Below are positions 3,011 through 39,145 of a DNA stretch of 64,000 bases, in pieces. Position numbers and translations under genes: made by a program. Position 1 is the stretch's first letter, and each line of letters begins with the position of its first letter. The stretch is from Axinella damicornis (taxonomy: Eukaryota; Porifera; Demospongiae; Axinellida; Axinellidae): the NCBI GenBank assembly GCA_963931865.1, contig OZ007513.1, positions 1,512,560 through 1,576,559 of the forward strand, written 5' to 3'. The notes beneath the pieces are model-generated. The model ran no database searches and was not told the origin of the DNA. It saw nothing but the letters and a program-made list of their open reading frames with translations.

Positions 3011-3087
3011 CTCCTCCCACTCATGCACACTCCAACTGTCCGGCTCCTCCCACTCTTGCACACTCCAACTGTCCGGCTCTCCCACTC
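3011..3087. repeat. 33-bp tandem repeat, about 2.3 copies
   Basis: CTCCTCCCACTC recurs at 3011 and 3044, with a truncated third start at 3077. The period is 33 bp. Confidence 0.8.
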
Positions 3088-4165: not shown

Positions 4166-4198
4166 TTATAAGATTATGCACAATGCAATAGCTATATG

Positions 4199-5560: not shown

Positions 5561-5562
5561 GA

Positions 5563-6017: not shown

Positions 6018-6018
6018 G

Positions 6019-9215: not shown

Positions 9216-9230
9216 TGTACATGCAGTCTA

Positions 9231-9687
9231 TATCAACGCAACACATAATGATTGATGTACTGTACTTTGTGAGCTTACCTTTACTCAGCTGTGAATATCA
9301 TTACCTAACTACCTATTGTCTAAGGTGTTGGGAAATTTCCATGGAAATATCATAGTACTAATAAAATGATACTTCATGGTTGAAAAGTATTTACAAGTTG
9401 ATACAAGGTTTCTTGTGCCAACAAGTTAAATACCTGTATTATCCATGAATTTCAAAATCCGTAGATTCTGAAATCATGTGTATAGGTCTTAATGGAATAG
9501 TGTGGGGTAGCTTCGTTCCCAGACCATTGCCCCTAGTTATTTGGCTAACATGCAGTTATGCGGTTTGTTGCATGCGCGTGGGATAGCCTGGGCATCCGAC
9601 GCTAGCCAACAGGTATGGTACCAAGGATTTAATCATCCACCCCCCCTTCTCAGGCTCACCATTTCCCCTTATGAAGCAAACTTGCTG
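9231..9687. other. Spacer, nothing recognised
   Basis: No exon or repeat was recognised between the satellite and the 44-bp minisatellite. Confidence 0.5.
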
Positions 9688-10010
9688 TCCATGGTTGTCT
9701 GTTCGAGGGGAGGTGTGTGGTCACTGCATGCAGTTTCTGCTGGTCTGTTCGAGGGGAGGTGCATGCAGGTCACTGTCGGTTCTGCTGGTGTCTGTTCGAG
9801 GGGAGGTGCGTGGTCACTGCAGGTTCTGCTGGTGTCGGTTCGAGGGGAGGTGCGTGGTCACTGCAGGTTCTGCTGGTGTCGGTTCGAGGGGAGGTGCGTG
9901 GTCACTGCAGGTTCTGCTGGTGTCGGTTCGAGGGGAGGTGCGTGGTCACTGCAGGTTCTGCCGGTGTCTGTACGAGGGGAGGTGCGTGGTCACTGCTGGT
10001 TCTGCTGGTG
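9688..10010. repeat. 44-bp minisatellite, about 7 copies
   Basis: GTTCGAGGGGAGGTGCGTGG recurs at 9794, 9838 and 9882 with an exact 44-bp period. More divergent copies lie on both sides. Open frames across it change with each unit and are artefacts. Confidence 0.9.
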
Positions 10011-11974: not shown

Positions 11975-14900
11975 TTACAGAAAGTTTTGTTGTGTATAAT
12001 CTAAAGGGTTCTCAATGTTTGTAAGGCTTCCCCTTTTGTCACGACCATACGCTATAATCACCATCTTCTTGTATGACATTGAATCGATGATGTTGTGCTG
12101 GTAAAACTGCAGGAGGGTTGTGGAGTTGATCAAGTTCAACACACCAGCTGCCTCTTCATTGTAGTCAAACTGCAGCTGACCTGAGGAAGTAGGAGTACAG
12201 TTACAGCAGTTCACTGGTGTTTGTAGTCCCTGTACTTACCATTGCTGATCTGTTCCCAGAGGCGGGTGCTCTTGTCAGCAAGAGTGAGGTCCTTCCTCTG
12301 CAGTGCAGCCCTGTACACCTCCACCTGCCTCTCCCACTCCTCCCCTGTCACACTCCCACTCAGGTAGTCCTCAAAGGACTCCAGGAAGCTATCGATGCGC
12401 CTTAGCACCTCTCCGGGTTCATACTCCTGGCTCTGTACCACCACCTACAGTAGAGTTGCCATACTGAATACAGTATGCTGCATATACATTAGTATGCTGG
12501 TCAGTGGGCTCGATCATCATCTGCCTAAGAAGTTGTATGCTATTCAATGCCTACATCCAAAGCTCACCTCGAATGACCCCACACCCTCATTGACTCTGTT
12601 GCGACAGAATGCAACATAGCCAAGCTGCTGTATCGTCCGTAACTGGTAGAAACACTGATCCTGTACGGAATAAACAAACAAGTTGAACTGAATCTAGACC
12701 AGTTTTATATAGGAAGTAGCAAATCTAGAGATGTGGGTAGTCTCTCCTTACCCCCATTACTTGACCCAGTAGTCCCAGGAGGACAGACGTCCTCAGAGAG
12801 TCCAGGGAGCATGCTTGAGTGCCAGGTTCATCTGATGGGACCAAATGACACACACTGCCAACCTGGAAGAGCAATACACAAACTGAGACTCACTCAATAG
12901 CTACATACACACCCAATGTTCATACTTGCATGTGTGGCACTAAATCTTGTTCTTCCTTTCCTTCGATGCCCAATACATGATTGCATACAACACACCTGAA
13001 ACAGCACGTTGACAACCGAGTTCACATCTGCAGGATTCAGAGCAGGGATAATGATGCTGTAGTTGGCTCCAGGGGACAGGCTGACACGCCTCCTCATGAA
13101 GTGACCCACTGGGTGACTAAAAGTGAGTTTGGAAGCGAGGGGTGAAGCAAGGGTGCGAGTGTAGTTTACAGCCTGGAGCATGGGGGGAAGATTACAGTGT
13201 GGTGAAGATTGCACATTACCTAAACAAGTGGGATGTGTAAGACATGTATTGTAGTGACAGTAAACTCAGACCTGCGAGTGATTGAGGTTGCCATGTGCAA
13301 AGCAGAGCAGAGTGATATCGGACAGCAGGTGGTCACCAAACTGGACAATTTGATCCAGATCAAGTCCCTCCATCTCTGACAGCAGCTCCCAGTGTCTCCA
13401 GTAGGGCTGCTCGAGAACAACCCTGTGGAGAGGAGAACATCATTGTGCTGAACACTGGAGATTACATTGTTAGATGTATATTGAATGGTTGACTTACGAC
13501 TGTATGTATCGGTAGTAGTGGTATGGTAGGGTAGTGAGGTTGTAGTTTCTCAGGTACTCTGCTACAGCATCATTTGCCAGGTGGTAAAAGTTGTAACTCC
13601 CTTGTAGGGTAGCTCTGTCAGTGAGGGCTGTAGGAGCACATGCATGTATCTGAATTCATTACTATACCCACAACGCAATAAAAGAAACCATAAACTTATT
13701 TTTATTACTGGATACCTGCCTTGAGAATCATGAATGGTAGGTTAAAAACTTTGATGGCGTGCATACTGCACAAGAATATTGGAGAGGAGATGGTCCTCAT
13801 GATCTTGTTCATATAGAGTGGAACCTGTTTATAGTGGTCACCTTGGGACCAGTATTTTTGGCAACCATAGACAGGTGGCTGCTTTAAGCAGGTCATTTTG
13901 TATACTGGATTGGAACCAGCAGCAGTGACCATAATGAGAGAGGTGGCTGCCTTAAACAGTGACCACTATAGGCAGGTTCCACTGTACGTAGACAGATCAG
14001 ACAGACGCTCACCACCAGCCACCATGCTAATGAACTTCCTGAAGATGGCTGGGTCACTGAGTCCACTAAAACTGAGGGTGAGTCCGTTGGGAGAGGGGGA
14101 GAGAGAGTAGGAGTAGCCGACTTCCTTCGCAGCATACACTTTAGACTGTAGCACCGCATTCACCAGGGAGACAAACAGTACGGACTTTGCTGCACAAAGA
14201 GACAGATACAAATATGACATTATAAACCCCACACATGAAAGCAGCATATATCCCGCATTCTTGAACCTTAGGTTTGCTATGATACTAAGAAACCTTTTGC
14301 TGCCTCACATGGGATTCAAACCAATGTACGACCACTGGCTTTCAAGGCCAAAGTACTACCAACTGAGCTACTGAAGCAGTACAGATGGATATGAAATGTC
14401 AACCCTGATAAACAAGGTCTAGACCTCAGAACCATAAAGACACACAAATCATGGAACTGGACGTATAAGCATGCATATTTAGCTAAGAAGAAAGAAAAGA
14501 AACATTCGACCTCGGTGAATTTGTTTCCTACCACTCCATTCTGCAGTGGTCTCAGCATGTGATGTGTTGAGGTTACAGTGGAGGTAGACATGAGGCTCAT
14601 GGAACTCTGTGTCCTGCAACCACCACAGAGAAACACCTGCCAGGTCTGGGGAGGGAGAGAGGATGAATGAAGTCAAACTATACCTCAAAAGCCTAACTAT
14701 ATTTAAATTTTACTTACCATCAATGGGAACTTCCACGGGAGTGTTTGAGGCGTTCACTGGTGGTTCCAATACCCACATATCCTCAGGAATGAATTGGTTA
14801 GCTCCAGGAAGGTGCAGGTCACCGGAGACACTGTCAATCCGCCAGTAGTCAACCAGAGTAGTGGAGAGGTTGGTTTCTTGGTAAGGGGTGCCATAAATGG

Positions 14901-17460
14901 GCTCGTACTACGTAGGTAAAAATAATACAGAAACAAATGAATGCAAACAAAATTAATGCACAGCAAATCTCTGCCTTCTGAAAGCAGAAAAATAGCTATC
15001 ATATTATGTATCTACACTACCCATTAACATTTCACTCACAAACACCATAACAAATCCATGTAGTATACAAGTATATATCAGACCAAACCTGAACCCATGC
15101 AACTCCTGTGTTTGCCAGGAGGTAGCATGAGACCAGTTTTCCCCGAGCTCCCAGACGCCCGAGGACACAGTTCTTCCGCCCCTGAGCTTGGGGGACACTG
15201 CTGGGAGCCTAGATACTTACCCTGAAGGCTGCCCAGCATCCCGCCACAGGAAGGAGGTCCTATAACCTCCTTCCTCCCAGTTTAACCCTGCGTGTTAAAC
15301 TGCATTATAACAAACCTGTGTCAGGACAGGCCATGGCACAGGCACATCACCCTCTTGCGTCACAGTGGGACGGCTGCTGCCATTGAAATTGAGTTTCTGT
15401 GTCCCAATGAACACCACACTGTTGTCTGGAGTGAGGTAGCTCAGAGTGTCAGTCACCAGAGTGGAATTGAAGAGGAAGCGATATGGAGAGGCTAGGAAAT
15501 CAGCTGGGTCCGTAACAAGACGCATTGCTTCTGAGATAGTTCTATGGGGAGGTGTGTGTGAAGGAGGTGGACATGAGGGCAATGAAGGGGAGAGAGGTAC
15601 AAATGAGAACCAGGATAGCTTGCTGATAACACATAGCATAACCTATGCAACTTACACAGCGTAGTCACTGGGTTTGTCTCTCTCAGCATAGTCAAACTTC
15701 AGCAGGTTGACTCTCACGAAGTCATCCCACTGCTGCATCCCAAGATTACCCTGGAGCAACCTCATGTACTCAAATACGATTGCAACAACTTCACTGATGT
15801 GAAGCAGACCATCATTGGTGACGTCGATTGAAACAAATAGCAGTGAATAAGAATCCGTACCAATTTCTGTACCCGCAGACAGACTGGTGGCATAGCGCTC
15901 GTTTCGTAACTTGGATAGAATGCTCCCCTCGCCTTCGTGACCTATGTACCTAGTCAGGAACTGAGACATGGCATTCCTATACTTGTACTGCAAGGGAGGG
16001 GTCTGCCAGTAGATGTGAAGTGTGTTCTTATCAGCCACAGTGTAGTAGTGCACAATCGTCCCATTGTACCCGGGAGGGAAGGAGGTTGTGTTGAATGTGG
16101 GAGCACTGACACCATGATTGATGATAGGGGAAAAGGACTTATTAGCTACCAACGTCATGTTCTCAATGGGGTCCCTGCCATATATCACCAGCTGCATCTG
16201 AGGAGAGTATGGAGAGAGATATAGAGGAGGAACACATGGGGAGGAATGTGAAGTTGAAGGAGGGTTGAAAAGGAGGGGATCCAGAGAGAGAAAAAGAAGC
16301 TAGGAGGTTTCTACTAGCTTCTTCCCAGCCTCTCCCACATGAAGCTGGGCGGGGCCTGGAAATGAGGCTAGGATTCTACATTGAGGGATACAAAGGAGTT
16401 TATAGTGGTATACCATTATGGGTTAGTGTTGTTATTGTTTAGTACCACAACGTTAGTTTGGCAAAGTGGAATTTGCCTTAAGTTTAGAGTTGACAAAATT
16501 ACTTGTGTACTTATCCTGATACTGAACCCTACAATTGTATACGTGGAGCCTATACAAAACCAAAGGCATTTGATCAGTATACATGCAATGTGTATCCATA
16601 ATATGTGGGAATAGAAGGAAACAAACATACCTGGTTTGCTGAGTAGTGAGTGCTGTAGTAATTGTGAAGGTATTCCAGGATATTAGAGTTGTCGAGAGAT
16701 TGTAAATTTCCTGTTGCAAATTGAGAAAATGGGTGGGCAGGATTTGACACGTGCTTTAGAAGCTGCCACAATCTCCATTCGTCAGACTGCAAGTTCTTTT
16801 CATGCTCTGCATTAACGGCATGTGATTCATTGCTGACAGCCCCAGGAGTGAATAGAGGAGCAATGAAGAACTGAGCAAACATGTCCAGTGCATGCTCAAG
16901 GTAATCTGCCTCCACTGAAAAGTAGTAATCTGTTTCCTGTGTTGAGGTGAACGCATTATCATACCCCCCATGGGTTGAGAGGAAGTTTGAATAAATGTGT
17001 TCATTGGAATACTTTTGTGTCCCCAGGAACAGCATGTGCTCGCAGAAGTGGGCCAGTCCCTGCACCTCTGGTCGGTCACTGAAGGACCCCACTGCTACAT
17101 CCATTGCCGCAGCAGAGATGTTTGAATCTGGGTCAGAGATGAGCAGAACGCGAAGCTGGTTGTCCAGACACAGTACCTGATAGGTACGGTCATCCATTGC
17201 AGATTTATTAACCATGCCACTTTCACAAGCTGCTTGGGGTGGTAGTGGCTGCAGTGCAGTTCGGTTCAGTTGTGTATAGTCCAGAGGATTCTCAATGTTG
17301 ATAATGCTTCCATTCTTGTCGTGACCATACGCTATAATCACAATCTTCTTGTATGTAGTTGAATCAATGATGTTGTGGTGGTAGAATTGCAGGAGGGTTG
17401 CAGAGTTGATGGAGTCCAACACACCAGCTGCCTCTTCATTGTAGTCAAACTGCAGCTGAC
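11975..17460 (-). CDS. Unit B3: terminal insulysin-like M16 unit of gene B
   Basis: It begins in fusion exon 17460-16631 (HFCEH and EHEKN intact). Further exons: 16197-15656, 15541-15316, 14907-14718, 14645-14532, 14189-14013, 13627-13498, 13422-13272, 13172-12996, 12862-12752, 12660-12568, 12444-12240, 12180-11975. The last exon ends IENPLDYTQQNFL then TAA, replacing the linker found at internal junctions. The TAA is inside CTGTAAGTTG, which also looks like a splice donor. The 15541 exon begins with A where the other copies mostly have G, a silent change in a split Val codon. Confidence 0.85.
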
Positions 17461-18032
17461 CTGAGGAAGCAACAGTATGAGTTGACGGCACTGTGGATAC
17501 CACAAGACATACTTCCCCTCAGAGCATCAGTGAATCAAACTTATCCTGATATGACACTGAGACAACCCCATTGCATGCAGGCTGCCCTACACAGCTCCAT
17601 GCAGCAGGTCACATCTACTGCCTGTTCATGTTGTGCTCTTTCAAAGAGCGCTAGCAAAAATGACTGCTATTGGTTCTCGTGATCCACCTGATGCTCATGT
17701 ATGAATCTGTATTTTCCATTCTAGTCACTGTTTTCATCACTTACCATTGCTGATCTGTTCCCAGAGGCGGCTGCTCTTGTCAGCAAGAGTGAGGTCCCTC
17801 CTCTGCAGTGCAGCCCTGTACACCTCCACCTGCCTCTCCCACTCCTCCCCCGTCACACTCCCACTCAGGTAGTCCTCAAAGGACTCCAGGAAGCTATCGA
17901 TGCGCCTCAAAACCTCTCCTGGTTCATACTCCTGGCTCTGTACCACCACCTATAGTATAAAGACCAAGCACATTGATGGAGCAAGGTACATTTATAGCGA
18001 ATTTGGTATCTAGTATAGTACAACGTATGCTG

Positions 18033-18064
<32 letters not shown>

Positions 18065-21000
18065 TAACAGCCTTACAGACATTAAATTTAATTACAGTAC
18101 CTATGCATATACACTTGCTCAAATTTCCATCGCAAACTACATGCTTAGTTCCTGCTCAGCAATAGCTTACCTCGAATGACCCGATACCCTCGTTGACTCT
18201 GTTGTGACAGAATGCAACGTAGCCGAGCTGCTGTATCGTCCGTAACTGGTAGAAACACTGATCCTGCCAGTTAATGGAACAGTAAATAGATTAGGTTTTG
18301 TAACATAAGATCCAAATTACCATTACCTATACTATGCTGGGAATCATTATAGAACTGTCCTTACCCCCATTACTTGACTCAGTAGCCCCAGGAGGACAGA
18401 CGTCCTCAGAGAGTCAAGGGAGCATGCGTGAGTGCTAGGTTCATCTGACGGGACCAGATGACACACACTGCCAACCTGATGAAGAACACAGGCATAACAA
18501 GTTAAATGCAGGGCACTGTGAGGTGACCATAGAGTCATTGTGATCTACATAGGTTTAGGGAACTGCAAGTGCTCTAAATAAAGGGATTGAAGTTGGGAAC
18601 ACGTGATTGACCTTAGCGCAATCTCAGACTACATTCTCACACAGAGTTCAAACACATGCACAACACAGGAACTGTGGGTCAGGCTGAAGTAGCCTCGTTC
18701 CCAGGCCACGCGGCCTGGGAACGAGGCTAAGGCTGAAGTAGCTATAGGCACCTGAAACAGCACGTTGACAACCGAGTTCACATCCTCAGGATTCAGAGCA
18801 GGAATAACGATGCTGTAGTTGGCCCCAGGAGACAGTTCGACACGCCTCCTCATGAAGTGACCCACTGGATGGCTTGCAGTCAGTGTAGAGGAGAGGGGTG
18901 AGGCCAGGGTGCGAGTGTAGCTCACAGCCTGGAGGGGGGTGGACCGTGCAGTAAAGTACTGTGATGTGAGGGAGCTGGTTTGAGAAACAAACTGTTAAGT
19001 GTGTTGTCCACTAGCTGGTGTGCACGCAGTACCACGTCCTTAAGCTGACCTGTGACTGGTTCAGGTTGCCATGTGCAAAGCAGAGTAGGGTAATATCGGA
19101 CAGCAGGTTGTCAGCAAACGGGGCAATATCATTCAGTCCAAGTCCCTCCATCTCTGACAGTAACTCCCAGTGTCTCCAGTAGGGCTGCTCAAGAACAACC
19201 CTGTTGAGAAGAGAAACATCAGCATCTGAACACTGGAGATTTCTTACATTGACTGGTTGACTTACGACTGTATGTATCGGTAGTAGTGGTATGGTAGGGT
19301 AGTGAGGTTGTAGTTTCTCAGGTACTCCGCTACAGTGTCGTTTGCCAGGTCGTAAAATTTGTAACTCCCTTGTAGGGTAGCTCTGTCAGTGAGGGCTGCA
19401 GGAGCACATGAGTGTATGCATAAGTAGGGAGAGTGGAGAGGACAGAAAGGGACTAACATTCACAATCCCATTGGAAGCATATGTGAATGGACACTCACCA
19501 CCAGCCACTGTGCTAATGAACTTCCTGAAGATGACTGGGTCACTGAGTCCACTAAAACTGAGGGTGAGTCCGTTGGGGGAGGGGGAGAGAGAGTAGGAGT
19601 AGCCAACTTCCTTTGCTGCATACACTTTAGACTGCAGCACCGCATTCACCAGAGAGGCAAACAGCACGGACTTTGCTGAAAGATAGAAAAATCACGCACT
19701 GTTGCACACAGCTACAGTTAACAAATCCACTACAATACTAGTATATATATGAGATACGAGTCGAGTACGTAGCTCATGATGGATTCAACTCATATACTGA
19801 CAAACCAAAACTTTTACATTCCCTTCAAGATGTAGATACACTTATATGACATGCTTGTCTGAACAATTGCACTTCAGTACTGGATATTCTGTCACTTGCA
19901 GCCTGGGTGGAGCCTCACATAAAGTCAAGCATGAAAGCTGCACAGGCACTCTGCAAACACTAGCAGTGCTGATGGCAATGTCCGTTATGACACTATACAT
20001 GCATCAGATGCGTGAGTGACATGCACTGTACTGTTTGTTTCCTACCACTCCATTCTGCAGTAGTCTCAGCATGTGATGTGTTGAGGTTACAGTGGAGGTA
20101 GACATGAGGCTCATGGAACTCTGTGTCCTGCAACCACCACAGAGAAACACCTGGCAGGTCTGGGGTGGGAGGGGGAGAGAATTATTGGAAGACGAACTAT
20201 ATACCTCAAAGCACTATATGACCATATATACTTACCATCGATGGGAACTTCGACGGGAGTGTTTGAGGCATTGACCGGTGGTTCCAATACCTCCAAATCC
20301 TCAGGAATGAATTGGTTGGTTCCAGGAAGATGCAGGTCTGTGGAAATATCTCTGTCTTCCGACCAGTAGTTAACCAGAGCAGTGGAGAGGTTGGTTTCTT
20401 GGTAAGGGGTGTCATAAATGGGCTCGTACTAGGTCAACAGAGAGAAACAGGCCATAATGTCAAGTTGTCAATGACATTACATACCAATCCTCATCAATTG
20501 CAGAACCATTCTCTGCCTTTAAAGCAGAAAGACAGAAACTATATTTTCTGGATTCTCCGTACTATGTATATAGCAGCAAACCTGTGTCAGTACTGGCCAC
20601 GGCACATTCACAGGGCTCTCTTGTCTCACAATGGGACGGCTGCTGCCATTGAAATTGAGTTTCTGTGTCCCAATGAACACCACACTGTTGTCTGGAGTGA
20701 GGTAGCTCAGAGTGTCAGCCACCAGAGTGGAGTTGAAGAGGAAGCGATATGGAGAGGCTAGGAAATCAGCTGGGTCCGTAGCAAGACGCATTGCCTCTGA
20801 GATGGTCCTGTGGGTAGAGGTGTGTGTTAAGGAGGTGGAGATGTGGAGAAGGAAGGAGAGAGAGAAGTATAAATGGGAGCCAGGATAATTCACCAATCAC
20901 ATGTAGCATAACTCATGCACACCTTATAGATCAGCAAACTAATGTACAAAACACCTTGCACGAGGAAAGGCATCTGAATCTTTAGTGTTTCTGTCCATCT

Positions 21001-24000
21001 ACCATACCCACAGTACCGTAAGCGCTCTAAATTATACAAGCATGAGAAGCAACTTACACAGTGTAGTCACTGGGTTTGTCTCTCTCAGCATAGTCAAATT
21101 TCAGCTTGTTGACCCTCACAAAGTCATTCCATTCCTCCACCCCAAGATTACCCTGGAGCAACCTTATGTACTGAAACACAGTGGCAATAATTTCACTGAT
21201 GTGAGGTAGGCCATCGTCAGGGACGTCGATTGAAACAAACAGCAGTGAATAAGAATCCGTGTTAACTTCCATACCAGCAGACAGACTGGTGGCCAAGCGC
21301 TCATTTATCAGATGTGACAAAATGCTCCCCTCACCTTCGTGACCTATGTACCTAGTCAGGAACTGAGACATGGCATTCCTATACTTGTACTGCAAGGGAG
21401 GAGTCTGCCAGTAGATGTGAAGTGTGTTCTTATCCGCCACAGTGTAGTAGTGCACAATCTTCCCATTGTATCCGGGAGGGAAAGAGGTTGTGTTGAATGT
21501 GGGAGCACTGACACCACGATCGGTGATAGGGGAGAAGTACTCGCTAGCCCACAGTACCAGGTTCGCAATGGGGTCCCTGCCATATATCACCAGCTGCATC
21601 TAGGGACAGTATTATGGAATAGGAGGAACGTGAAGTTGATGGAATGAGAAGAATAGGGCTGAAAAGGTGCGCATGGGGAAGAGAAGCAAGGAGGTTTTAC
21701 TAGCTTTCTTCCCAGCCTCTCCCACATGAAGATGGGTGGGGGCCCGGGAACGAGGCTAGGTTTCCACAATGCAGGATACAAAGGAGCTTATAGTTGGACT
21801 ACCATTAAGGCAACTGGAATAATAGTTTAAAGTTGACAAGTTTACTTGTGCCGATACATACTGCATCCAGTATTGTATTGATTCTGAACCACAGGATTGT
21901 ATTACGATTGTATAAGTGGAGCCTACACATGCAACCGAAGTATCAAGTGCATACGATCAAGTATTGGTATGTGTCGTGAAATGAGAAACGGGTGGGAATC
22001 AAAACATAATTCACTAATTCCAATTCATGTAGCTAGTAAGTGCTCACAAATTTATAGGAATGGAAGGACACAAGACATGACTACTTCACGAAGAGGGTAC
22101 CTGGTTTGCTGAGTAGTGAGTGCTGTAGTAATCGTGAAGGTCCTCCAGGATATTAGGGTTGTTGAGAGTTTGCAAGTTTCCAGTTGCAAATTGAGAAAAT
22201 GGGTGGGCAGGATTTGACACGTGCTTTAGAAGCTGCCACAATCGCCATTCGTCAGACTGCAAGTTCTTTTCGTGCTCTGCATTAACAGCGTGTGATTCAT
22301 TGCTGACAGCCCCAGGAGTGAACAGAGGAGCTATGAAGAACTGAGCAAACATGTCCAGTGCATGCTCAAGGTAATCTTTCTCCACTGAAAAGTAGTAATC
22401 TGTTTCCTGTGTTGAGGTGAACGCATTATCGTACCCCCCATGGGTTGAGAGGAAGTTTGAATAAATGTGTTCATTGGGATACTTTTGTGTTCCCAGGAAC
22501 AGCATGTGCTCGCAGAAGTGGGCCAGTCCCTGCACCTCTGGTGGGTCACTGAAGGACCCCACCGCTACATCCATTGCTGCAGCAGAGATGTTTGAATCCG
22601 GGTCAGAGATGAGTAGAACGCGAAGCTCGTTGTCCAGACACAGTACCTGATAGGTACGATCATCCATTGCGGATTTATTAACCATGCCACTTTGACAAGC
22701 TGCTTGGGGTGGTAGTGGCTGCAGTGCAGTTCGGTTCAGTTGTGTATAGTCCAGAGGATTCTCAATGTTGACAATGTCCCCATTTTTGTCATGACCGTAA
22801 GCTACAAACACAATCTTCTTATATGAAGTAGTATCGACAATGTTGTGCTGGTAGAACTGCGAGAGGGTTGCAGAGTTGATGGAGTCCAACACACCAGCTG
22901 CCTCTTCATTGTAGTCAAACTGCAGCTGACCTGAGGAAGTAACAGTATGAACTGACAGCACTGTGGATACCACAAGACAATTCCTTTCAGAAGGTATTGG
23001 TTGTAATTTTATTCAGGGTTTCACTCTATTGTAAGGTAGATCTTGCTTGTTGCCAATGTTCTTTATAATATGTCATTTCTCTTGTTCAGCTATTCTGCTC
23101 TCACAGTCCACACATATTTCACTGCCCAATTGTATTAGTCAGTGCCCCCAACCTCTCTTCATTTACCATTGCTGATTTGTTTCCAGAGGCGGCTGCTCTT
23201 GTCAGCAAGAGTGAGGTCCCTCCTCTGCAGTGCAGCCCTGTACACCTCCACCTGCCTCTCCCACTCCTCCCCCGTCACACTCCCACTCAGGTAGTCCTCA
23301 AAGGACTCCAGGAAGCTATCGATGCGCCTCAACAGCTCTCCTGGTTCATACTCCTGGCTCTGTACCACCACCTACAGTAGAAAGTGACGGGACCAGTACA
23401 TTCATAATGAATGAGTAGTGAATATGTGACTTACATAGCCTCGTTCCCAGTCTCACGCCCAGCTTTCCGTCGCTTGCAGTACATTAAATACCAGGCTCAG
23501 AGGCTTGCGGGAAGCAGAAGTATTAGCTACGTTAGGACGGACGTTTGAACTCAGCATGTGCAAGATGCTGTCTCAGATGTTGGGAGCAATGTGTGCTCTT
23601 GGTAGTAAAGCGTTAATCCAGCGGCTGTATGTGTTTTACCGGTATAGACTGATGTTGCTATATGTACCATTTTGCTAGCCACCTTGCACAGTGTACCTCC
23701 GACTCAACTTCAGTTTCCACATTGTTCACTACTTTGGGCTTACACATAGTCTACATGCATGCACTGGACCATACTAAACGTACTAGGTGCATGGAGCTGG
23801 GGGGAGTATTTGCTTCTTTGCAACAGACATTTACCATTCACATTACTATTTAAACCTGCATACCCACAGGAACATACTAAACATAATTATGGGGGAATTG
23901 CTTTACTTTATATGCTGGCTAAAACCTCATACTGTGCACAACTGCATAGTTGCCTCACTTCCTGCTCAGCAATAGCTCACCTCAAATGACCCTACACCCT

Positions 24001-27000
24001 CGTTGACTCTGTTACAACAGAATGCAACATAGCCGAGCTGCTGAATTGTTCGCAAATGGTAGAAACACTGCTCCTGTCAGTTAGAGAGAAATTAGATTAC
24101 ATTTTGTAACACATATCTACCACTACCATTGGAGAGCAAAATTTAAGCATAATATCTTACATGGCTAGCTATCTCTTCATTGATCCTCTGAATGTTCAAA
24201 TCTTAGAACTGGATCTCTTACCCCTATGATTTGGTTCAGTAGTCCCAGGTGCACAGACTTCCTCAGAGAGTCAAGGGAGCATGCTTGAGTGCCAGGTTCA
24301 TCCGATGGGACCAGATGACACACACTACCAATCTGAAGAACACACAGGCATTGTGAGGTGAGCCGGAGCAAGTACACAGCTATGCATAACATAGAGTCAT
24401 TGCAAGCACATGACCTGCATGCAGTTCTGAAGTTAGTGCTCCACATGACTGACTATACCACAGTCTTAGACTACAGTCACACAAAGTACATACAAACACA
24501 TGCACAACACAGGAACTGTGGATCAGGCTGAAGTAGGCACCTGAAACAGTATGTTGACAACCGAGTTCACATCCTCAGGATTCAGAGCAGGAATCACGAT
24601 GCTGTAGTTGGCTCCAGGAGACAGTTCGACACGCCTCCTCATGAAGTGACCCACTGGATGGCTTGCAGATAGTTTGGAGGAGAGGGGTGAGGCAAGGGTC
24701 TGAGTGTAGGTTATAGCCTGGAGGGGGGTGGACCGTGCAGTTTGTGATGGGTGCCTCAAAAAAGCTGTACACAAGTGTGTTCTACACAATAAATTATGGT
24801 ATACATGCAGCACTAATAACTTAAGAGCAGCTGACCTGTGACTCATTGAGATTGCCGTGCGCAAAGCAGAGCAGAGTGATATCGGACAGCAGGTGGTCAC
24901 CAAACTGGACAATTTGATCCAGATCAAGTCCAGCTCCCTCCATCTCTGACAGCAGCTCCCAGTGTCTCCAGTACGGCTGCTCAAGAACAACCCTGTGGAG
25001 AGGAGAAACATCAGCATCTGAACACCGGAGATTTCTTACATTGAATGGTTGACTTACGATTGTATGTATCGGTAGTAGAGGTATGGTAGGGTAGTGAGGT
25101 TGTAGTTTCTCAGGTACTCTGTTACAGCATAATTTGCCAGGTGGTAAAAGTTGTAACTCCCTTGTAGGGTAGCTCTGTCAGTGAGGGCTGTAGGAACAAA
25201 TATGTGTTTATGAACAAGCACATTGGAGCACAATCATGTATTCACAAGTAGTGGGAGAGGGTAGAAGAGGGTACTCATGATCACATCCACAGAGGAGCAT
25301 ATGGACAGACAGACGCTCACCGCCAGCCACTGTGCTAATGAACTTCCTGAAGATGGCTGGGTCACTGAGTCCACTAAAACTGAGGGTGAGTCCATTGGGG
25401 GAGGGGGAGAGAGAGTAGGAGTAGCCGACTTCCTTCGCTGCATAAACTTTAGACTGTAGCACCGCATTCACCAGAGAGACAAACAGCAGGGACTTTGCTG
25501 GAAGATACAAAATACATGTGCATCACACACTACAAAGGTTGCACAGCTAACAAATGCATTACAGATGCAAGTCCATGCAGCCGGAAGGATACAACTCGGC
25601 GCATATACTTATTCACACACTCAACAAGGGTAATGAAGCACAATACGCCTACGACATTCTTGTAGCTACAGTTTTGCTTGAATATTGCCTAGGCAAACAA
25701 CTTAGTGTTACACTAAGCTAGCACTACAGCACTGTCACGAAACATACAATATTCATGAACACAGCTGAAATTAACTACATATGCAGAGTTGTAGGTGGCA
25801 ATTATGACATGCATGCACTGCAGTTGTTTCCTACCACTCCATTCTGCAGTGGTCTCAGCATGTGATGTGTTGAGGTTACAGTGGAGGTAGACATGAGGCA
25901 CATGGAACTCTGTGTCCTGCAACCACCACAGAGAAACACCTGGCAGGTCTGGGGTGGGAGAGAGAGATGGTGGAAGACAAAATGAACATGTACCTCAAAC
26001 GTTACTTTTAGTATGAGCTGGCCAGGTGGACACAATCCAAGTCCAGTAAAGAAGTATCCACGAGGCCAGAGTATAATGCAAGTCATGACACATCACTCCA
26101 AGAAAAGCTGGCCCCACTAGTTACCCAAACCAAGAGTGTCCTTGCAAATTGATTGTAACATGTCAAGAGCCAATTTAGGCATATACATACGTATGGTCAC
26201 ACTTACCATCAATGGGAACTACCACAGGAGTATCTGAGGCATTAACTGGTGGTTCCAATACCTCCAAATCCTCAGGAATGAATTGGTTGGTTCCAGGAAG
26301 GTGCAGGTCACCAGAGACACTGATGTGCTGCCAGTATTCAACCAGGGGAGTGGAGAGGTTGGTTTCTTGGTAAGGGGTGCCATAAATTGGCTCATACTAG
26401 GAGAAATGGAGAAAGAGATGAATGTCAGCAGCAGTACATAATATGGGGAACCATTCTCAGACTTTTGAAAGCAGAAAGATAATTATATATTATACCTCCA
26501 TGTAAAACAAACCTGTGTCAGTACTGGCCATGGCACATTCACAGGGCTATCTTGTCTCACGGTGGGACGGCTGCTGCCATTGAAATTGAGTTTCTGTGTC
26601 CCAATGAACACCACACTGTTGTCTGGAGTGAGGTAGCTCAGGGTGTCAGCCACCAGAGTGGAGTTGAAGAGGAAGCGATATGGAGAGGCCAGGAAATCAG
26701 CTGGGTCTGTAGCAAGACGCATTGCCTCTGAGATGGTCCTGTTGGGAGGTGTGTGTGAAGGAGGTGGAGATGTGGGCAATGAAGGGGAGAGAGGTACAAA
26801 TGCGAACCAGGATAGCTTGCCGACAACATGTAGCATAATGCAACTTACACAGCGTAGTCACTGGGTTTGTCTCTCTCAGCATAGTCAAACTTCAACTTGT
26901 TGACTCTCACAAAGTCATTCCATTCCTGCATCCCAAGATTACCCTGGAGCAACCTTATGTACTGAAACATGATTGCAATAATTTCACTGATGTGAGGCAG

Positions 27001-30000
27001 GCCATCGTTAGTGACGTCGATTGAAACAAACAGCAGTGTATAAGAATCCGTGTTAAGTTCCACGCCAGCAGACAGACTCGTGGCATAGCGCTCGTTTCGT
27101 AACTTGGATAGAATGCTCCCCTCACCTTTGTGACCTATGTACCTAGTCAGGAACTGAGACATGGCATTCCTATACTTGTACTGCAAGGGAGGGGTCTGCC
27201 AGTAGATGTGAAGTGTGTTCTTATCAGCCACAGTGTAGTAGTGCACAATCTTCCCATTGTACCCGGGAGGGAAGGAGGTTGTGTTGAATGTGGGAGCACC
27301 GACACCATGATTGGTGATAGGGGAGAAGGATTCATTAGCCCACAGCATCAGGTTCGCAATGGGGTCCCTGCCATATATTATCAGTTGCATCTGAGGAGAC
27401 ATATAGTGGAGGAGGAATGCATATAGAGTTGAAGGAGTGGGAGAAACGGAGGACAAAAGGAAGGGGATCCGGAAAAGGGAAAAGAAGCAAGGAGGTGCTT
27501 ATACACTGAAAGAAACAAAGGGACAAATGAATATTTATGGCCTGGTGTTGTTGTTCTAGTACCACACTGTTAGTTGGGATACAGTTTTGGCAATCTATTA
27601 GTTCTCGTAACTCAAACTTTATTTATGGTTGCTAGATCACTATCTGTAGCTAGTCTTATTAACAACAAAATGCTTGTTTTGTCTACAGCCAGTGAGATAT
27701 ATATATTACAAGTAATAAAAAACATTTAAAATGTAACAGGATGTAGCTAGGGATACCAGAACGGCAAAAAGTAAGGAAACAAGGTAGGGATGATCACACA
27801 AAACAGTGAAGTATACAACCCCCCTACAGAGATCTTTTTCCATAATACGTGTATAATGAAAAAAGATATGTAGGGGGATTGTATACTTCACTGTTTTGTG
27901 TGATCATCCCTACCTTGTTTCCTTACTTTTTGCCGTTCTGGTATCCCTACATCCTGTTACATTTTAAATGTTTTTTATTACTTGTTTATGTCATGTTTTT
28001 AGCAGCAGGCGCATACATACTGAACTCTGGCATTTACACTGCGAGCAATGGCTGAAGAATTTACTTATGGTTCCACAACAGCGCAAGGCACTTCTAATTC
28101 AGCGATCTTGAATAATAATTACGTATTGTTGCTAAGTGATCGTTTAAGTGCGCATGCGTACAAACATGAAAATGGCGTGACAAATGAAGCCATAGTTATT
28201 GAGTGGGCAGCTGCAGCCGCCTGGTGAAGACTTGGAGTTTGCGAAAAAGCGATGGGCTGGTGCACTGCTCGGTGTAAAATGCTGCTGTTTCGTGCGAAAA
28301 CCATCATGAGGGATTGAGGCGACGTTGAGCTAGCCCGTCTGAAAGAAGAAAGAAGAAAGAAGAAGAAGAAGAAGAAGAAAGAAAAACAATTTGCTCGTTT
28401 TGCGAGTACCTGGTGTGGTACTTTCGCGACGGTTTTTCGCGATGTGAGGAGTCTTGTTGGTCATGAAAACACTCGAAGATGAACGGTATGTTGTTATAAA
28501 GGCTTATAAGTGTACCGTTTCTGAGATTTGGAGAGATTTTTTTGTATTAGCATATATTGCGTGTACGTCGTATCCCTACATACAGAGTCTACCGACTCTG
28601 TGATATATACAGGCTTCAGTGAGTCCCCAGAGAGAAATGTACCTGCCACATTCAGTATTGTACTGATTCTGAATCCATATACGGTTGAATAAGAATTGCA
28701 AGTGTAGTCTACATAACTGAAATACCCCCAGTGCATATGGCATGCATGTGCATACATTACCGATAGATGCGGGCATGGATGGGCACCATCCATCATCACT
28801 GTGCATTCAGTATCGCAATTGCAAATGGAGTCTACATGTCTGAAATAGCACTATGCTGGTATATTGGCATACATGTGCACACACTACCCACTGATGTGGG
28901 CAAAGATGGGCACCATCCATCATCAAAGCTTTCCACATTCACGCTACGACGTATTAGCCCATATGAATCTGGGAAAATGGTGCTTCAAAAATGGCCATTT
29001 GGAGGTTCCTTCTGTGTGAAAAGGAGTGCTAATGTGCATGTGTGGACCAGCTACACAGGAAGGCAAGCAGCTTTTCCTGTGCTAAGTGTGCATACAAAAT
29101 TGAAGGACACAGACATAAATACTTCTCATGAAGAGGATAGATACCTGGTTTGCTGAGTAGTGAGTGCTGTAGTAATCAAGAAGGTCCTCCAGGATATTAG
29201 GGTTGTCGAGAGTTTGTAAGTTTCCTGTTGCAAATTGAGAAAATGGGTGGGCAGGATTTGATACATGCTTTAGAAGCTGCCACAATCTCCATTCGTCAGA
29301 CTGCAAGTTCTTTTCATGTTCTGCATTAACGGCATGTGATTCATTGCTGACAGCCCCAGGAGTGAATAGAGGAGCAATGAAGAACTGAGCAAACATGTCC
29401 AGGGCCTGCTCAAGGTAATCTGCCTCCACTGAAAAGTAGTAATCTGTTTCCTGTGTTGAGGTGAACGCATTATCGTACCCCCCATGGGTGGAGAGGAAGT
29501 TTGAATAAACATGTTCATTGGGATACTTTTGTGTCCCCAGGAACAGCATGTGCTCGCAGAAGTGGGCCAGTCCCTGCACCTCTGGTGGGTCACTGAAGGA
29601 CCCCACCGCTACATCCATTGCCGCAGCAGAGATGTTTGAATCTGGGTCAGAGATGAGCAAGACTCGAAGCTGGTTTTCTAGACACAGCACCTGATAGGTT
29701 CGGTTATCCCTTGCCGATTTTTCAACCTCAGTATTTGGTTGGGGTAGTGGTGTCACAGCTGGTGTGGCAGTGGGGGACGGCACATGGGATGAAACAGAAG
29801 TCACGTACCCCGATTGCTGAGAGGGACTAGGAGACAGCATTGTAGTGGGAGGTATCTGTTCATGGGATGCTACAGACGCTGAGGTTGGAGCAAGACTGGT
29901 CATAACTGATACTGGGTAATATGAAGAAGCTACTGATATTGAAGACATTGTTTGTTGAAATGATAAAGCGGTTGTTATTTGAGGAAGCATTGTGGACAAA

Positions 30001-30872
30001 GAGGGTGTAGCTTGAAGCCGAGGGGTGATCATGGTGGTGAGATGAGAAGATGTGGACAGTGAGGGGGTAGCTTGAACCAGAGAGATCACTGTAGGGAGAT
30101 GAGACATTGGTATTTGTGTGGAAACTTGAGAAGCTAGTGGCGATATTGTCTTGGGCGTGTGAGACATGGAGCTTGAATGGTCAGCCGTGGAAGCAGATGA
30201 ACTGGGGTTGGTTGTCGTAGCAACAGACCAGGTGGATTGGGTTGGGGTAGGACCAAATGAGCTGAACTGGGTTACTGATGAAGCCATGGGAACTGATGGA
30301 GTCATCATAGGAGTTGAAGAACCAGATTTTGCAGTCGTAGAAGCTGATGAAGTATGCAGGGTTGGTATGGCAGCTGAAGAGCTGGGTACTATCATACCTT
30401 GCGATTGCAAACTTGCCTGCGTTCGGCTGGTAAACATAACCACTGGTGAGATCACTGAGTGCGATGAAGCTGCGTTAGAAGGGGTTGGTACAGGCGTTGA
30501 TAGGTTTACTTCGGATGTTGTATTGCTCTCCACGACTGAGCTTGAAGTGTGGGCCATCGACGTTCCAGTCTGTGTTCCAGCTCCGCCCTCATGGCCACCT
30601 GTACCAGTACTAGAGCTACCGAACTCTACTAAAACGACAAACATAGCCACTCCCATCAGCAACGCCACAAGAAGAATCAGAGCACAAATAAGAACTATTC
30701 CAAAGCAACAATGTCTTGGTTTACTGCTCCGTGCACGTACTGGTGTAGGATTATGCAGTTTCACCTCCTCCTCTTCTTCAAATGGGTTGTCACTATCACT
30801 GTCATCTGATTGGTCACCCTCCCCAAACACCTGCATTAGAGGTATACCTTCTTCGTTTCGAAATTGTGACAT
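11975..30872 (-). CDS. Gene B: membrane-anchored protein with three tandem insulysin-like M16 units
   Basis: This is a predicted type II membrane zinc metallopeptidase of family M16 (insulysin/nardilysin type), about 3316 residues from 37 exons. Layout: acidic cytoplasmic tail, one membrane helix, Ser/Thr-rich stalk, then units B1, B2 and B3. Each unit has the N-half zinc site HFCEH plus EHEKN, and in the C-half the RTIQQLGY segment carrying the Arg and Tyr that bind substrate in insulysin. Every splice site follows GT-AG and phases add up to one continuous frame through all 37 exons. Many NxS/T sequons (NESH, NTTS, NLTT, NQSQ) fit an extracellular location. The stop TAA (11977-11975) lies in B3. 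I know of no described enzyme with three full M16 units. An alternative is separate transcripts per unit, but the units inside lack start exons or anchors. Transcript evidence is lacking. Confidence 0.8.
14300..14379 (-). pseudogene. tRNA-like sequence in a B3 intron (tRNA pseudogene or SINE head)
   Basis: On the minus strand the ends CTGCTTC and GAGGCAG pair (one G-T). A-box-like TAGCTCAGTTGGTAGT and B-box-like GGTTTGAATCC are spaced as in a tRNA, and TGGC-CTTGAAA-GCCA forms an anticodon arm with a TGA triplet. The D stem is mismatched and the long variable arm of true Ser tRNAs is not evident. A more decayed tRNA-like insert lies in the equivalent intron of C2. Confidence 0.45.
16306..16375. 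mobile_element. Short inverted-repeat insert in the B3 intron, shared with B2 and D2
   Basis: CTAGCTTCTTCCCAGCC on the left and GGCCTGGAAATGAGGCTAG on the right form a rough inverted pair related to the TAGCCTCGTT family. Equivalent copies lie at 21701-21763 (B2) and 60148-60215 (D2) in the same intron, so it predates the unit duplications. Confidence 0.55.
16631..22930 (-). CDS. Unit B2: insulysin-like M16 unit 2 of gene B
   Basis: It begins inside the fusion exon 22930-22101, after the B1 end, and carries HFCEHMLFLGTQKYPNEH and EHEKN. Further exons: 21599-21058, 20807-20582, 20428-20236, 20159-20046, 19675-19499, 19395-19266, 19200-19050, 18928-18752, 18475-18365, 18263-18171, 17949-17745, and fusion exon 17460-16631. 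Exon lengths (542, 226, 193, 114, 177, 130, 151, 177, 111, 93, 205, 830) equal those of D1 and D2. There is no anchor, stalk or signal peptide before it, so it can only be made as part of a longer chain. All catalytic and substrate-binding residues I can locate are intact. Confidence 0.85.
18032..18061. repeat. Poly(G) tract, 30 nt, in the last-but-one intron of B2
   Basis: Uninterrupted G run in intron 18170-17950 (poly-C in the sense of gene B). The flank GCACTAACAGCCTTACAGAC also occurs, inverted, next to the poly-C at the right end of the window in D2. Confidence 0.95.
18690..18729. mobile_element. 40-bp micro-hairpin insertion with 9-bp target duplication, in B2
   Basis: Two perfect 18-bp arms (TAGCCTCGTTCCCAGGCC and its complement) surround ACGC. 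AGGCTGAAG precedes (18681-18689) and follows (18730-18738). The matching intron of B1 (around 24530) has the empty site. D2 carries the same insertion at 63297-63333. Confidence 0.85.
22101..27390 (-). CDS. Unit B1: insulysin-like M16 unit 1 of gene B (exons after the anchor)
   Basis: Exons: 27390-26849, 26738-26513, 26396-26207, 25948-25835, 25497-25321, 25187-25058, 24992-24836, 24717-24541, 24332-24222, 24073-23981, 23371-23167, and the fusion exon 22930-22101. Intron phases run 0, 2, 0, 1, 1, 1, 2, 0, 0, 0, 0, 1. The first three exons hold the rest of the catalytic half and the hinge, the others the C-terminal half. Compared with B2, the 24992 exon has two extra codons and the 26396 exon one fewer, both in frame. 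The Arg of LRTIQQLGY is present. The catalytic HFCEH of this unit is in the anchor exon. Confidence 0.85.
23372..23980. other. Long B1 intron with one repeat end
   Basis: This 609-bp intron precedes the 23371-23167 exon. TAGCCTCGTTCCCAG occurs at 23436-23450 without a visible partner end. No other feature was seen. Confidence 0.5.
27391..29144. other. First intron of gene B
   Basis: This 1754-bp intron holds a 278-bp hairpin (27708-27985), a GAA-rich run (about 28336-28385), and a diverged duplication of about 140 bp sharing GATGGGCACCATCCATCATC (28650-28790 and 28800-28925). Parts of the duplicated sequence match the equivalent introns of B2 and D2 (CAGTATTG, GATTCTGAA), so it is old intron sequence. 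Confidence 0.6.
27708..27985. mobile_element. 278-bp near-perfect hairpin (foldback MITE)
   Basis: Left arm from ACAAGTAATAAAAAACATTT and right arm ending in its complement match over about 130 bp, apart from a 4-base GCTA insertion in the left arm and scattered changes near the loop (about 27837-27857). No gene. No clear target duplication. Confidence 0.75.
29145..30872 (-). CDS. Gene B exon 1: tail, membrane anchor, stalk and start of unit B1
   Basis: Single exon of 576 codons, donor GTATCT at 29144. Met at 30872 is chosen because genes C and D begin with the same kind of tail (EGIPLM followed by an acidic cluster). Residues 20-36 are rich in Asp, Glu and Ser. Residues about 56-82 form one hydrophobic helix flanked by basic residues, so the N-terminus should be cytoplasmic. 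Residues about 84-385 are Ser/Thr/Pro-rich and probably O-glycosylated. The peptidase fold starts near 390, with the zinc site HFCEH at 437-441 and EHEKN downstream. No signal peptide is seen. Confidence 0.85.
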
Positions 30873-33728: not shown

Positions 33729-36700
33729 TTACAGAAGGTTTTGTTGGGTATAGTCTAGAGGGTTCTCAATGTTGGTAAGGTTCCCGCTTTTGTCACGACC
33801 ATACGCTATAATCACCATCTTCTTGTATGAAGTTGAATCGATGATGTTGTGCTGGTAAAACTCTAGGAGGGTTGTAGAGGTGATTGAGTCCAACACACTG
33901 GCTGCCTCTTCATTGTAGTCAAACTGCAGCTGACCTGAGGAAGTAGGAACACAGTTACAGCAGTTCACTGGTGTTTGTAGTCCCTAGCTGTACACACCAT
34001 TGCTGATCTGTTCCCAGAGACGGTGATTCTTATCAGCTTGAGTGAGGTCCTTCCTCTGCAGTGCAGCCTTGTACACCTTCATTTGCCTCTCCCATCCCTC
34101 CTTCCCCCACTCCTCCCCCGTCACACTCCCACTCAGGTAGTCCCCAAAGGACTCCAGGAAGCTATCGATGCGCCTCAACACCTCTCTTGGCTCATACTCC
34201 TGGCTCTGTACCACCACCTACAGTAATAGAGAGAGCATTGGACCATCCACTAACTACCAAGGGGATGTTTATTTCATGGTAGATTAGCAATCTTTTAGCC
34301 ACAACAAGGGATGGCATTAGTTGCTGTGCAGTGAATTTCACTAGCAATCCATAAGTGAAATTAGGACAAGCTCACCTCGAATGACCCCACACCCTCATTT
34401 ACTATGTTGTGACAGAATGCAACATAGCCGAGCTGCTGTATTGTCCGTAACTGGTAGAAACACTGTTCCTGTACGGAATGAAATGGAAGTACAAAGGGAT
34501 TTACCACGCCATTCTTGTTATTTATGGCTGGTCTCTCCTTACCGCCATTATTTGGTCCAGCAGTGCCAGGTGCACAGCTGTCCTCAGAGATTGAACAGAG
34601 CATGCTTGAGTGCCAGGTTCATCTGATGGGACAATATGACACACACTGCCAACCTGGAAGAAGAGCAATACACAGCTGACACTCACTCCACATGGACTTA
34701 CCACACTGCAGTAACAACACAGTCAAATGCTTAGCAATCATACACCTCCTTTCGTATATACTTGAGTCCATACACGATACACAAATATATACACTCACCT
34801 GAAACAGCACATTGACAACCGAGTTCACATCCTCGGGATTCAGAGCAGGAATAACGACGCTGTAGTTGGCTCCAGGAGACAGTTCGACACGCCTCCTCAT
34901 GAAATGACCCACTGGATGGCTTGCAGATAATTTGGAGGAGAGGGGTGAGGCAAGGGTGTGGGTGTAGTTCACAGCCTGGAGGAAAGAGAGTTTCATAAGA
35001 TTGCACAATTAGGAGTCAGCTGTATTGACAGCACCACACCCAATTGAACTGCAACAAATGGGATATGGCTCCATGCGCTCCTGGTAAGCTATATATATTG
35101 ACAGTAAACTCAGACCTGTGACTGGTTCAGGTTGCCATGTGCAAAGCAGAGTAGGGTAATATTGGACAGCAGGTTGTCAGAAAACTGGACAATTTGATCA
35201 AGATCAAGTCCCTCCATCTCTGACAGCAGTACCCAGAGTCTCCAGTAGGGCCGCTCAAGAACAACACTGCAGTGGGGAGAACACCATACAGATATAGGAA
35301 ATTTACAATCTCATGTTAAATGCTGAATGGTTGACTTACGACTGTATGTATCGGTAGTAGTGGTATGGTAGGGTAGTGAGGTTGTAGTTTCTCAGGTACT
35401 CCGTTATACTATCATTTGCCAGGCGATAAAAGTTGTATTTCCCTTGAAAGGCAGCTCCGTCCATGAGGTCTGCAGGAACATATAAGTGTATGAACAAGTA
35501 GGGAGAGTGGAGAGGAGAGAATGGGACTCATACATACAACACAGAGAGAAACTCACCACCAGCCACTGTGCTAATGAACTTTGTGAAGATGACTGGGTCA
35601 CTGAGTCCACTAAAACTGAGGGTGAGTCCGTTGGGGGAGGGGAAGAGAGCGAAGGAATAGCCAACTTCATTTGCTGCATACAGTTTAGAGTGCAGCACCT
35701 CCTTCACCAGGGAGGCGAACAGTACGGACTTGGCTGCACAAAGAGAAGGATACAAGTAGAATCACGTACCCGATCTTGTGTTCTTTACCCTGGGTATACT
35801 GAAGCTATTTGCATGACTGCCAGCTTAAAAAGCCAATGTTATACCAACTGAGCAACTGAACTTATGAACAATCAATGATTCAAAGAAGCTTGTTTCTTAC
35901 CACTCCATTCTGCAGTGGTCTCAGCATGTGATGTGTTGAGGTTACAGTGGAGGTAGACATGAGGCTCATGGAACTCTGTGTCCTGCAACCACCACAGAGA
36001 AACACCTGGCAGGTCTGGGGTGGGCGGGATGTTTCATTGGAGAGATTTTATGGTGCCACAAAGCCAATCGAAGGATAATCCTTGCAGGTGGTCATTTCAT
36101 ACATTGGTGTCCAGTGCAGCTGTGAGATCAAGTTACTAATTTAGGCATGTGAGAGAGTTACAATCAGCACTCCTATGCGATGCCCTATACTTACGGGGTG
36201 AGAGAGGGACGATGGAATATACTTACCATCAATGGCAATTTCAACAGGAGTATCAGAGGCATTCACTGGTGGTTCCAATACCCCCATATCCTCAGGAATG
36301 AATTCGTTGGTTCCAGGAAGGTGCAGGTCACCAGACAATTCACTATCATTTTGCCAGTAGTCAACCAGAGCAGTGGAGAGGTTGGTCTCTTGGTAAGGGG
36401 TGCCATAAATAGACTCATACTAGAGAAATTAGAAGAACAGCAATCTAAAGCATTACCTAATGCATAGTCTTTCTTTATCCTTGGATGGCAGGAAAATTAA
36501 ACAAACCTGTGTCAGTACTGGCCACGGCACATTCACAGGGCTATCTTGTGTCATGGTGGGATGGCTGCTGCCGTTGAAATTGAGTTTCTGGGTCCCAATG
36601 AACACCACACTGTTGTCTGGAGTGAGGTAGCTCAGAGTGTCAGCCACCAGAGTGGAGTTGAAGAGGAAGCGATATGGAGAGGCTAGGAAATCAGCTGGGT

Positions 36701-38589: not shown

Positions 38590-39109
38590 CTGAGAAGTAA
38601 CAGTATATGTACCATGATCACATCAGTTTGCATATTATCACATGAACTTCCGTTCAGAGTATCAGATCAAAATTTTTATCTGGATGTTCCTATTCCAAAT
38701 CCAGTCATATAGCAACAGCCTAGTCACTGCGTCCTCTCTTTTCATCACTTACCATTGCTGATCTGTTCCCAGAGGCGGCTGCTCTTGTCAGCAAGAGTGA
38801 GGTCCCTCCTCTGCAGTGCAGCCCTGTACACCTCCACCTGCCTCTCCCACTCCTCCCCCGTCACACTCCCACTCAGGTACTCCTCAAAGGACTCCAGGAA
38901 GCTATCGATGCGCTTCAGCACCTCTCCTGGTTCATACTCCTGGCTCTGTACGACCACCTACAGTACAGAGCATGAACATTGATGGGACCAGGCACATTCA
39001 TAGCAAAATTAATTCGGTATAACAATTAGTGACTATACAGCAGGAAGGTAATTAGCATGCTATATTTTCTCTCTCTCTCTCTCCCCCCCCCCCCCCCCCC
39101 CCCCCCCCC

Positions 39110-39145
<36 letters not shown>

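Follow-up and report, generated by a model that had tools for sequence, protein, structure and literature searches.

Three insulysin units behind a single predicted membrane anchor in a gene of the sponge Axinella damicornis

A stretch of 64,000 nucleotides from the genome of the sponge Axinella damicornis (contig OZ007513.1 of assembly GCA_963931865.1), referred to below as the window, was analysed for a gene on its minus strand, gene A (11975..30872), whose 37 exons join three complete insulysin units of peptidase family M16 behind one predicted membrane anchor. Its 3316-codon frame is, in the reading that we consider reasonably probable, translated into a single type II membrane protein whose three units would work independently of one another, each a chamber for peptide degradation on the one stalk, both at the cell surface and in endosomes. 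The insulysins known from eukaryotes have one unit and in most cases no export signal, and their release from cells is debated; the locus adds a predicted anchor and a probable endocytic signal. According to PMC8774118, insulin-degrading enzyme (IDE) in microglia is mostly cytosolic, and a signal peptide was predicted in 1.7% of the eukaryotic M16A proteins studied. Three catalytic units per chain are predicted for two genes of the sponge lineage, gene A and its neighbour gene B, a layout that is new within this well-known enzyme family. A third and shorter gene of the cluster, gene C, is included in the comparisons.

Structure of gene A

Gene A was derived anew by spliced protein-to-DNA alignment with our own C program, in a search region taken from an initial annotation of the window. 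Exons or open frames from within the window served as templates, and the program permits GT-AG introns, GC-AG introns at a cost, and frameshifts never. The coding sequence runs from 30872 to 11978, is closed by a TAA codon at 11977-11975 and encodes 3316 residues, so that the single gene of 37 compatible exons proposed initially was recovered with the same residue count. No internal stop is present and all 36 introns are of the GT-AG type; this outcome and the unbroken frame are partly given by construction, because the aligner is restricted to GT-AG and GC-AG introns and allows no frameshift. Translation is taken to begin at the first ATG in a frame opening at 30884, the same start as had been chosen before.

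Exon 1 (29145..30872) encodes a cytosolic tail, a predicted transmembrane (TM) helix, a stalk rich in Ser and Thr, and also the zinc half of unit 1, as judged from hydropathy, composition and a PF00675 match at residues 403-540. Based on motifs and spliced alignment, unit 1 extends from the end of this exon to the start of exon 13 (22740..29717), and units 2 and 3 occupy 17270..22673 and 11990..17203, respectively, all on the minus strand. The units are connected within two minus-strand junction exons of 830 bases each, exon 13 (22101..22930, linker at 22739-22674) and exon 25 (16631..17460, linker at 17269-17204). In both, one open frame passes through the end of a unit, a 22-residue linker and the zinc half of the unit that follows.

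The zinc-site motifs HFCEH (29564, 22520 and 17050) and EHEKN (29321, 22277 and 16807) and the segment RTIQQLGY (24052, 18242 and 12639) were located three times each, where the initial annotation had placed them. In the chain without its stalk, the Pfam search identified three stretches of PF00675, six of PF05193, three of PF16187 and three of PF22456, which together with the open junction exons bears out the claim of three complete insulysin units in one chain. A single TIP120 match was below its cut-off and was set aside. The unit pattern of 12 introns is repeated in all six complete units of genes A and B, which, like the codon comparisons given below, argues against a chance assemblage of open frames. 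The border pair of exons 18 and 19 in unit 2 of gene A (19493/19395) is positioned differently than in the other units, and its placement is less certain. A frame inside the exon 8/9 intron of unit 2, seemingly missed coding sequence, was present in unit 2 of gene A and of gene B (A2 and B2) and absent from four of the six units compared; it was rejected.

By its domains, length of about 1000 residues, zinc motif, distal glutamate and C-half segment each unit is assigned to M16A, the insulysin subfamily, with the fold judged through the predicted model of a relative. The RTxxQLGY segment of the C-half has a role in catalysis. The best solved relatives of the units are insulin-degrading enzymes (E about 1e-130), with which they have in common the Pfam make-up, the zinc and catalytic residues, about 30% identity and, by the relative's model, the fold; IDE, unlike gene A, has a single unit and no anchor. 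In PMC10604886, the zinc-site and catalytic residues of IDE are given as His108, His112, Glu189 and Glu111. The predicted model of P0001, a single-unit anchored relative described below, has a mean predicted local distance difference test score (pLDDT) of 84.9 and, when superposed, fits 932 residues of IDE at 1.8 Å, and each unit should therefore be a peptide-admitting chamber like that of IDE. The tail of this model (1067) was aligned with the end of IDE (1009), and the linker of gene A resembles by eye the tail of another anchored relative, P0002 (LDYTQLNRTALQPLP vs LDYWTLDRNRTVLP). Given this alignment and this resemblance, the spacer between unit cores is estimated at about 16 residues. 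An early view, that the linker lacked the end of IDE, was dropped since the P0001 model aligned to IDE as far as residue 1009.

Conservation and age of the units

Both zinc-site motifs are kept in all seven complete units of genes A, B and C, as is RTIQQLGY, and these units share 83-94% protein identity. The ratio of nonsynonymous to synonymous divergence (dN/dS) was 0.22-0.40 in 28 of 28 pairs among eight units (the seven complete ones and the half unit of gene C), and the upper 95% bounds in the seven pairs that were bootstrapped were 0.29-0.62. On these codon comparisons, purifying selection acts on every unit. The synonymous distance among the units was 0.10-0.28.

Over nine unit pairs, within and between genes A and B, coding identity was 91-96%. 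Introns of non-corresponding units were 56-61% alike over their alignable parts (12 comparisons), with 43-57% for a shuffled control (11 introns), and those of corresponding units reached 86% for A2/B2 and 73% for A3/B3. A codon tree grouped A2 with B2 (100), A1 with B1 (99) and, weakly, A3 with B3 (bootstrap 63), the last being a grouping for which the protein tree gave no resolution. Gene A introns were nearest to the same-position intron of gene B in 23 of 36 cases (12 expected), namely for 4 of the 12 introns of unit 1, 11 of those of unit 2 and 8 of those of unit 3. Since codon tree and intron matches pair corresponding units, the three-unit layout probably predates the A/B duplication and was kept in both genes. 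Different units share blocks of 95-98% identity, which suggests later conversion between units; the weak A3/B3 signal can be explained by such conversion, which probably turned the genes mosaic.

Membrane anchor and predicted location

The first 384 residues of gene A form an acidic tail, a hydrophobic helix and a stalk, of which serine and threonine make up 40%. Hydropathy of the helix is 3.17 over a 19-residue span at residue 59, and basic residues flank the helix on its N-terminal side. The predicted TM helix (about residues 59-84; 30621..30698, minus strand) is, by our reading of the positive-inside rule, of type II. In the cytosolic tail, EGIPLM (30834..30851, minus strand) is predicted to be an acidic dileucine-type sorting motif from a pattern shared by anchored proteins: [DE]G[IV]PL[LM] is found near the tail start in six of six of them, i.e. 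genes A, B and C and the relatives P0001, P0002 and P0005, three of the six being from one genome. Four of the six match the endocytic motif [D/E]XXXL[L/I] with a proline preceding the leucines, and a proline in this place is reported to aid binding (PMC2882754).

N-glycosylation sequons number 1.35-1.77 per 100 residues in the seven complete units of genes A, B and C and 0.96-1.58 in P0001, P0002, P0004 and P0005. Among 206 other homologues, each 900-1250 residues long, the median is 0.40 and the highest value 1.02, so that sequons in the units are three to four times as dense. This density in every unit fits an outward-facing position as an ectodomain. From the type II anchor, the sequon density and the acidic dileucine-type motif, the units are predicted to face outward, at the surface or in endosomes; the cell-surface location proposed initially is a prediction here as well, widened to include endosomes.

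A search of the entire genome with the 95 N-terminal residues of gene A gave three matches at E values up to 10, one each in genes A, B and C, and a search with PF00675 gave 16, of which seven fall within this cluster. With three anchor matches for seven zinc halves, units 2 and 3 lack such an anchor exon of their own, in agreement with the single anchor at the start of the chain that had been noted before. In gene B, a 30-base tandem repeat (7.2 copies, window 50089-50304) encoding SSSVTMATQP-like repeats lies within the stalk, whose length may vary for this reason.

Relatives of gene A

A protein search with a two-row query alignment, the second row being one unit long, and a wide length window gave 2948 matches among 7994 scored candidates. 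At the top of the best 120 of these 2948 stood P0001 and P0002, with 49% identity over the aligned part. Like gene A, they have an insulysin unit behind a similar tail and TM helix, carry the same tail motif and belong to the same clade. P0005 also shares the tail motif, anchor and clade, at 52% identity over the aligned part. Unlike gene A, these three proteins, which come from JGI and lgn sets, have one unit each (partial in P0005). P0004, a JGI entry with 22 member sequences at the base of the clade, resembles gene A in a unit end that runs unbroken into a whole second unit, but differs from it as a fragment of 37% identity in which no anchor was seen.

Longer chains, of about 1600-5100 residues, were searched for among 5827 candidates with words from the first 500 residues, a design by which distant chains could escape. 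Of the 26 long M16 chains matched, four had two units and none had three in an M16 profile scan. The four two-unit models, from Leersia, Oryza rufipogon, Rhododendron and Aphanomyces (P0003 and P0121-P0123; 26-30% identity), are comparable to gene A in holding two M16A units in one predicted chain. No TM-like segment was found by hydropathy in their first 200 residues, and they may be neighbouring genes fused in annotation. The length-restricted search hence gave no known chain with three M16 units and a TM helix, and no published M16 enzyme with three units or with an anchor was found in the literature searched, which was mostly open-access. The statement of the initial annotation that no M16 enzyme of such layout has been described is consistent with both searches.

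Ahead of the zinc half, a TM-like segment was detected by hydropathy in 13 of 241 fetched proteins: P0001, P0002, P0005, the window's own P0079, four with the segment at residues 15-20 (signal-peptide-like), four Trichinella chains or fusions, and P0143. Export of M16 proteins is therefore not unique to the anchored clade. A tree of 35 rows united the seven complete units, P0001, P0002, P0005 and the second unit of P0004 in one clade with a Shimodaira-Hasegawa-like approximate likelihood-ratio test (SH-aLRT) value of 100. The canonical IDE of the genome, on contig C5, grouped with animal IDEs in a partial alignment with 26% of columns filled. Judged from their place outside the animal IDE group and from their multi-unit, anchored layout, the units do not belong to the IDE orthologues. 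The other M16 genes of the genome are labelled, by our reading of their sequences, as nardilysin-like (C13) and mitochondrial-type (C1, C4 and C6), and the anchored clade may represent a third animal M16A lineage alongside IDE and nardilysin.

Neighbouring genes and other features

Gene B has the same 37-exon, three-unit layout with an anchor and stalk of its own. Spliced alignment placed it on the plus strand at 49666..64000, from where it continues to a stop at window coordinate 71320. It consists of the same exons in the same order, with 3356 residues to the last aligned codon, after which the codons STV and the stop follow. Its junction exon 13, between units 1 and 2, was aligned at 58969..59798 (plus strand).

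Gene C (33729..43659, minus strand, by spliced alignment) comprises 22 exons and 1567 residues, with an anchor, a half unit from which the zinc lobe is missing, and a single complete unit. The anchor and a short stalk lie in exon 1 (43290..43659, minus strand). As this exon ends, in DNA and protein, in a way that by eye is similar to the end of unit exon 4 (SDTPVEVSMD), gene C is probably a deletion derivative and the exon 1 end its scar. The half unit (window 43216-38399) has no HxxEH and carries QTIQKLGY replacing RTIQQLGY, so that a natural pseudo-unit precedes the complete unit. The junction exon is intact in genes A and B and also in gene C. No stops were found across the 96 exons of the three genes (37 + 37 + 22), and exon lengths are equal between units, or differ by whole codons once the exon 6/7 pair is summed. 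Intron 8 of gene C contains a 44-base tandem repeat of 24 copies with 96% matches (window 39320-40375).

Elsewhere in the window, two arrays of a 15-base repeat (AATGTCAATGCAGCC) were observed at 4206-5549 and 7470-9202, with about 88 and about 115 copies, open in several frames. An open frame on the minus strand at 1656-2681 has a sub-threshold match to the biotin-protein ligase N-terminal region and possibly belongs to a holocarboxylase synthetase. In the genome, wnt matches lie at three loci (7 exon matches, as against 0 of 14 prokaryotic control genomes), which makes an animal likely; the low number of wnt genes and the lack of a named close relative would fit a sponge. On contig C4, which is of chromosome scale and eukaryotic, dense intronless genes of bacterial type with 56-61% GC occupy 14862065-14870999 (L014, about 1066-10000), beside a stretch of 37% GC. 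By eye these genes include an acyl-CoA synthetase-like one, a thiolase-like one and one for a 928-residue M16 peptidase, which groups with proteobacterial ones. The alternatives for this DNA are a scaffolding fault, a symbiont or a transfer.

Discussion

In the working that we propose for gene A, the chain would remain uncleaved and each closed chamber would cut peptides small enough for entry. The gain would be more active sites and a higher local concentration per anchor, and each chamber would capture products released from the one before it, in the manner of carboxypeptidase D or angiotensin-converting enzyme (ACE) and not of an obligate allosteric trimer. By way of the acidic dileucine-type motif the protein would cycle between surface and endosomes, and the peptides destroyed would be food peptides or peptide signals. 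Independent chambers and avidity are argued for because all units of genes A and B share the catalytic residues and no member is inactive. In this respect they are likened to the two active units of carboxypeptidase D, as described in PMC5683605, and not to a regulatory-subunit design.

A number of observations weigh against this interpretation. With a value of only 56.5%, intron similarity between A1 and B1 does not exceed that of non-corresponding units, and the orthology of unit 1, based on 4 of 12 introns, is a weak point. The selection signal in the linkers is unclear, with 0-3 residue-altering and 0-2 silent changes among 26 codons, and gene C demonstrates that units can be lost. Sequon density is lower in P0004 and P0005 (1.04 and 0.96), and the tail motifs of genes A and C (EGIPLM and EGVPLM) end in methionine, outside the strict [DE]XXXL[LI] pattern. 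AATAAA occurs within the VNKSA codons of both gene A linkers (22679 and 17209), and a search for AATAAA or ATTAAA from the gene A stop down to window position 11000 found neither. The linker signals may leave room for unusual or premature 3' ends, which would carry no stop codon, and they count in favour of an arrangement of three overlapping genes or alternative transcripts with units expressed singly. We regard such an arrangement as very unlikely, as units 1 and 2 end without a stop codon, no anchor exon stands ahead of units 2 and 3 among the three genome matches, and the junction exon is intact in all three genes.

The long chain could also be a polyprotein that is cut between units into free or separately held insulysins, as polyserase-1 is. 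This seems unlikely to us, given that the five linkers of genes A, B and C are without a furin-type RX[KR]R site and that the spacer between cores is short; the sole such site in the three genes, RDKR at residue 3295 of gene A, lies in the tail of unit 3. Cleavage by some non-furin protease is possible and would count against an uncleaved chain. The initial annotation, for its part, had proposed a tethered trimer with three units packed together and allosterically coupled. PMC10604886 describes IDE as mainly dimeric, the interface being built from a terminal strand and the C-terminal domains, and reports homotropic effects among the subunits; moreover, a spacer of about 16 residues would hold neighbouring units close. 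By analogy with the cross-influence in the IDE dimer, coupling of subunits is possible. As a packed trimer the proposal nonetheless appears doubtful, because the analysis reveals no interface, single-unit anchored relatives exist that need no tether, and no unit of gene A or B has turned into a dedicated regulatory unit, catalytic residues being present in all. A covalent M16 machine may be imagined as well, in which three end-to-end chambers with spacers of about 16 residues would relay part-cut peptides at the membrane and signal their state to one another, fixing the equilibrium oligomer of IDE; we consider it conceivable, though somewhat unlikely.

Expansion of one gene in the assembly would account for the high protein identity of the complete units, and the bacterial stretch on another contig indicates that the assembly may contain faults. 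The probability of this explanation is nevertheless close to negligible. Neither the window nor gene B contains gap letters, the units differ in synonymous distance, and intron similarity between different units is for the most part close to that of the shuffled control; neither the pairing of corresponding units nor the divergence of introns is an expected outcome of expansion. A decaying or untranslated array would agree with gene C being one and a half units short of genes A and B, but is extremely improbable in view of the lack of stops in 96 exons, of exon lengths that agree or differ by whole codons (with an aligner blind to frameshifts) and of dN/dS well under 1 in every pair. Introns that have mostly diverged while coding sequence remains 91-96% alike speak against assembly duplication and decay together.

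Regarding the origin of the array, an alignment of the linker's second half (PLPPQAACQSGMVNKSAMD) to the end of the stalk (PLPQPNTEVEKSARD) is possible, and the DNA shares CCACTACC. From this short match, the simplest history is likely to be unequal crossing-over between tandem single-unit anchored genes, by which the last exon or tail of one would have been joined to the stalk end of the next. Fusion into three units would precede the duplication into genes A and B.

A natural oligomer of fixed stoichiometry, with units that can be switched separately, would render the cross-talk of insulysin subunits directly testable. With the predicted three-unit chain, M16 would join the families with multi-unit enzymes, i.e. 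those of ACE, carboxypeptidase D and the polyserases. The fold of carboxypeptidase D, an M14 enzyme, is unrelated to M16. In PMC5683605 and PMC11266112 this enzyme is described with three tandem metallopeptidase units, one membrane anchor and cycling to the surface, like the predicted product of gene A, while its anchor is C-terminal and its third unit inactive, unlike in gene A. In polyserase-1, as presented in PMC1435904, three protease units likewise come after a type II anchor; in contrast to those of gene A, they are serine proteases and are cut apart. As a functional analogy, the gene models fit a multi-unit membrane ectopeptidase of the carboxypeptidase D or polyserase-1 type.

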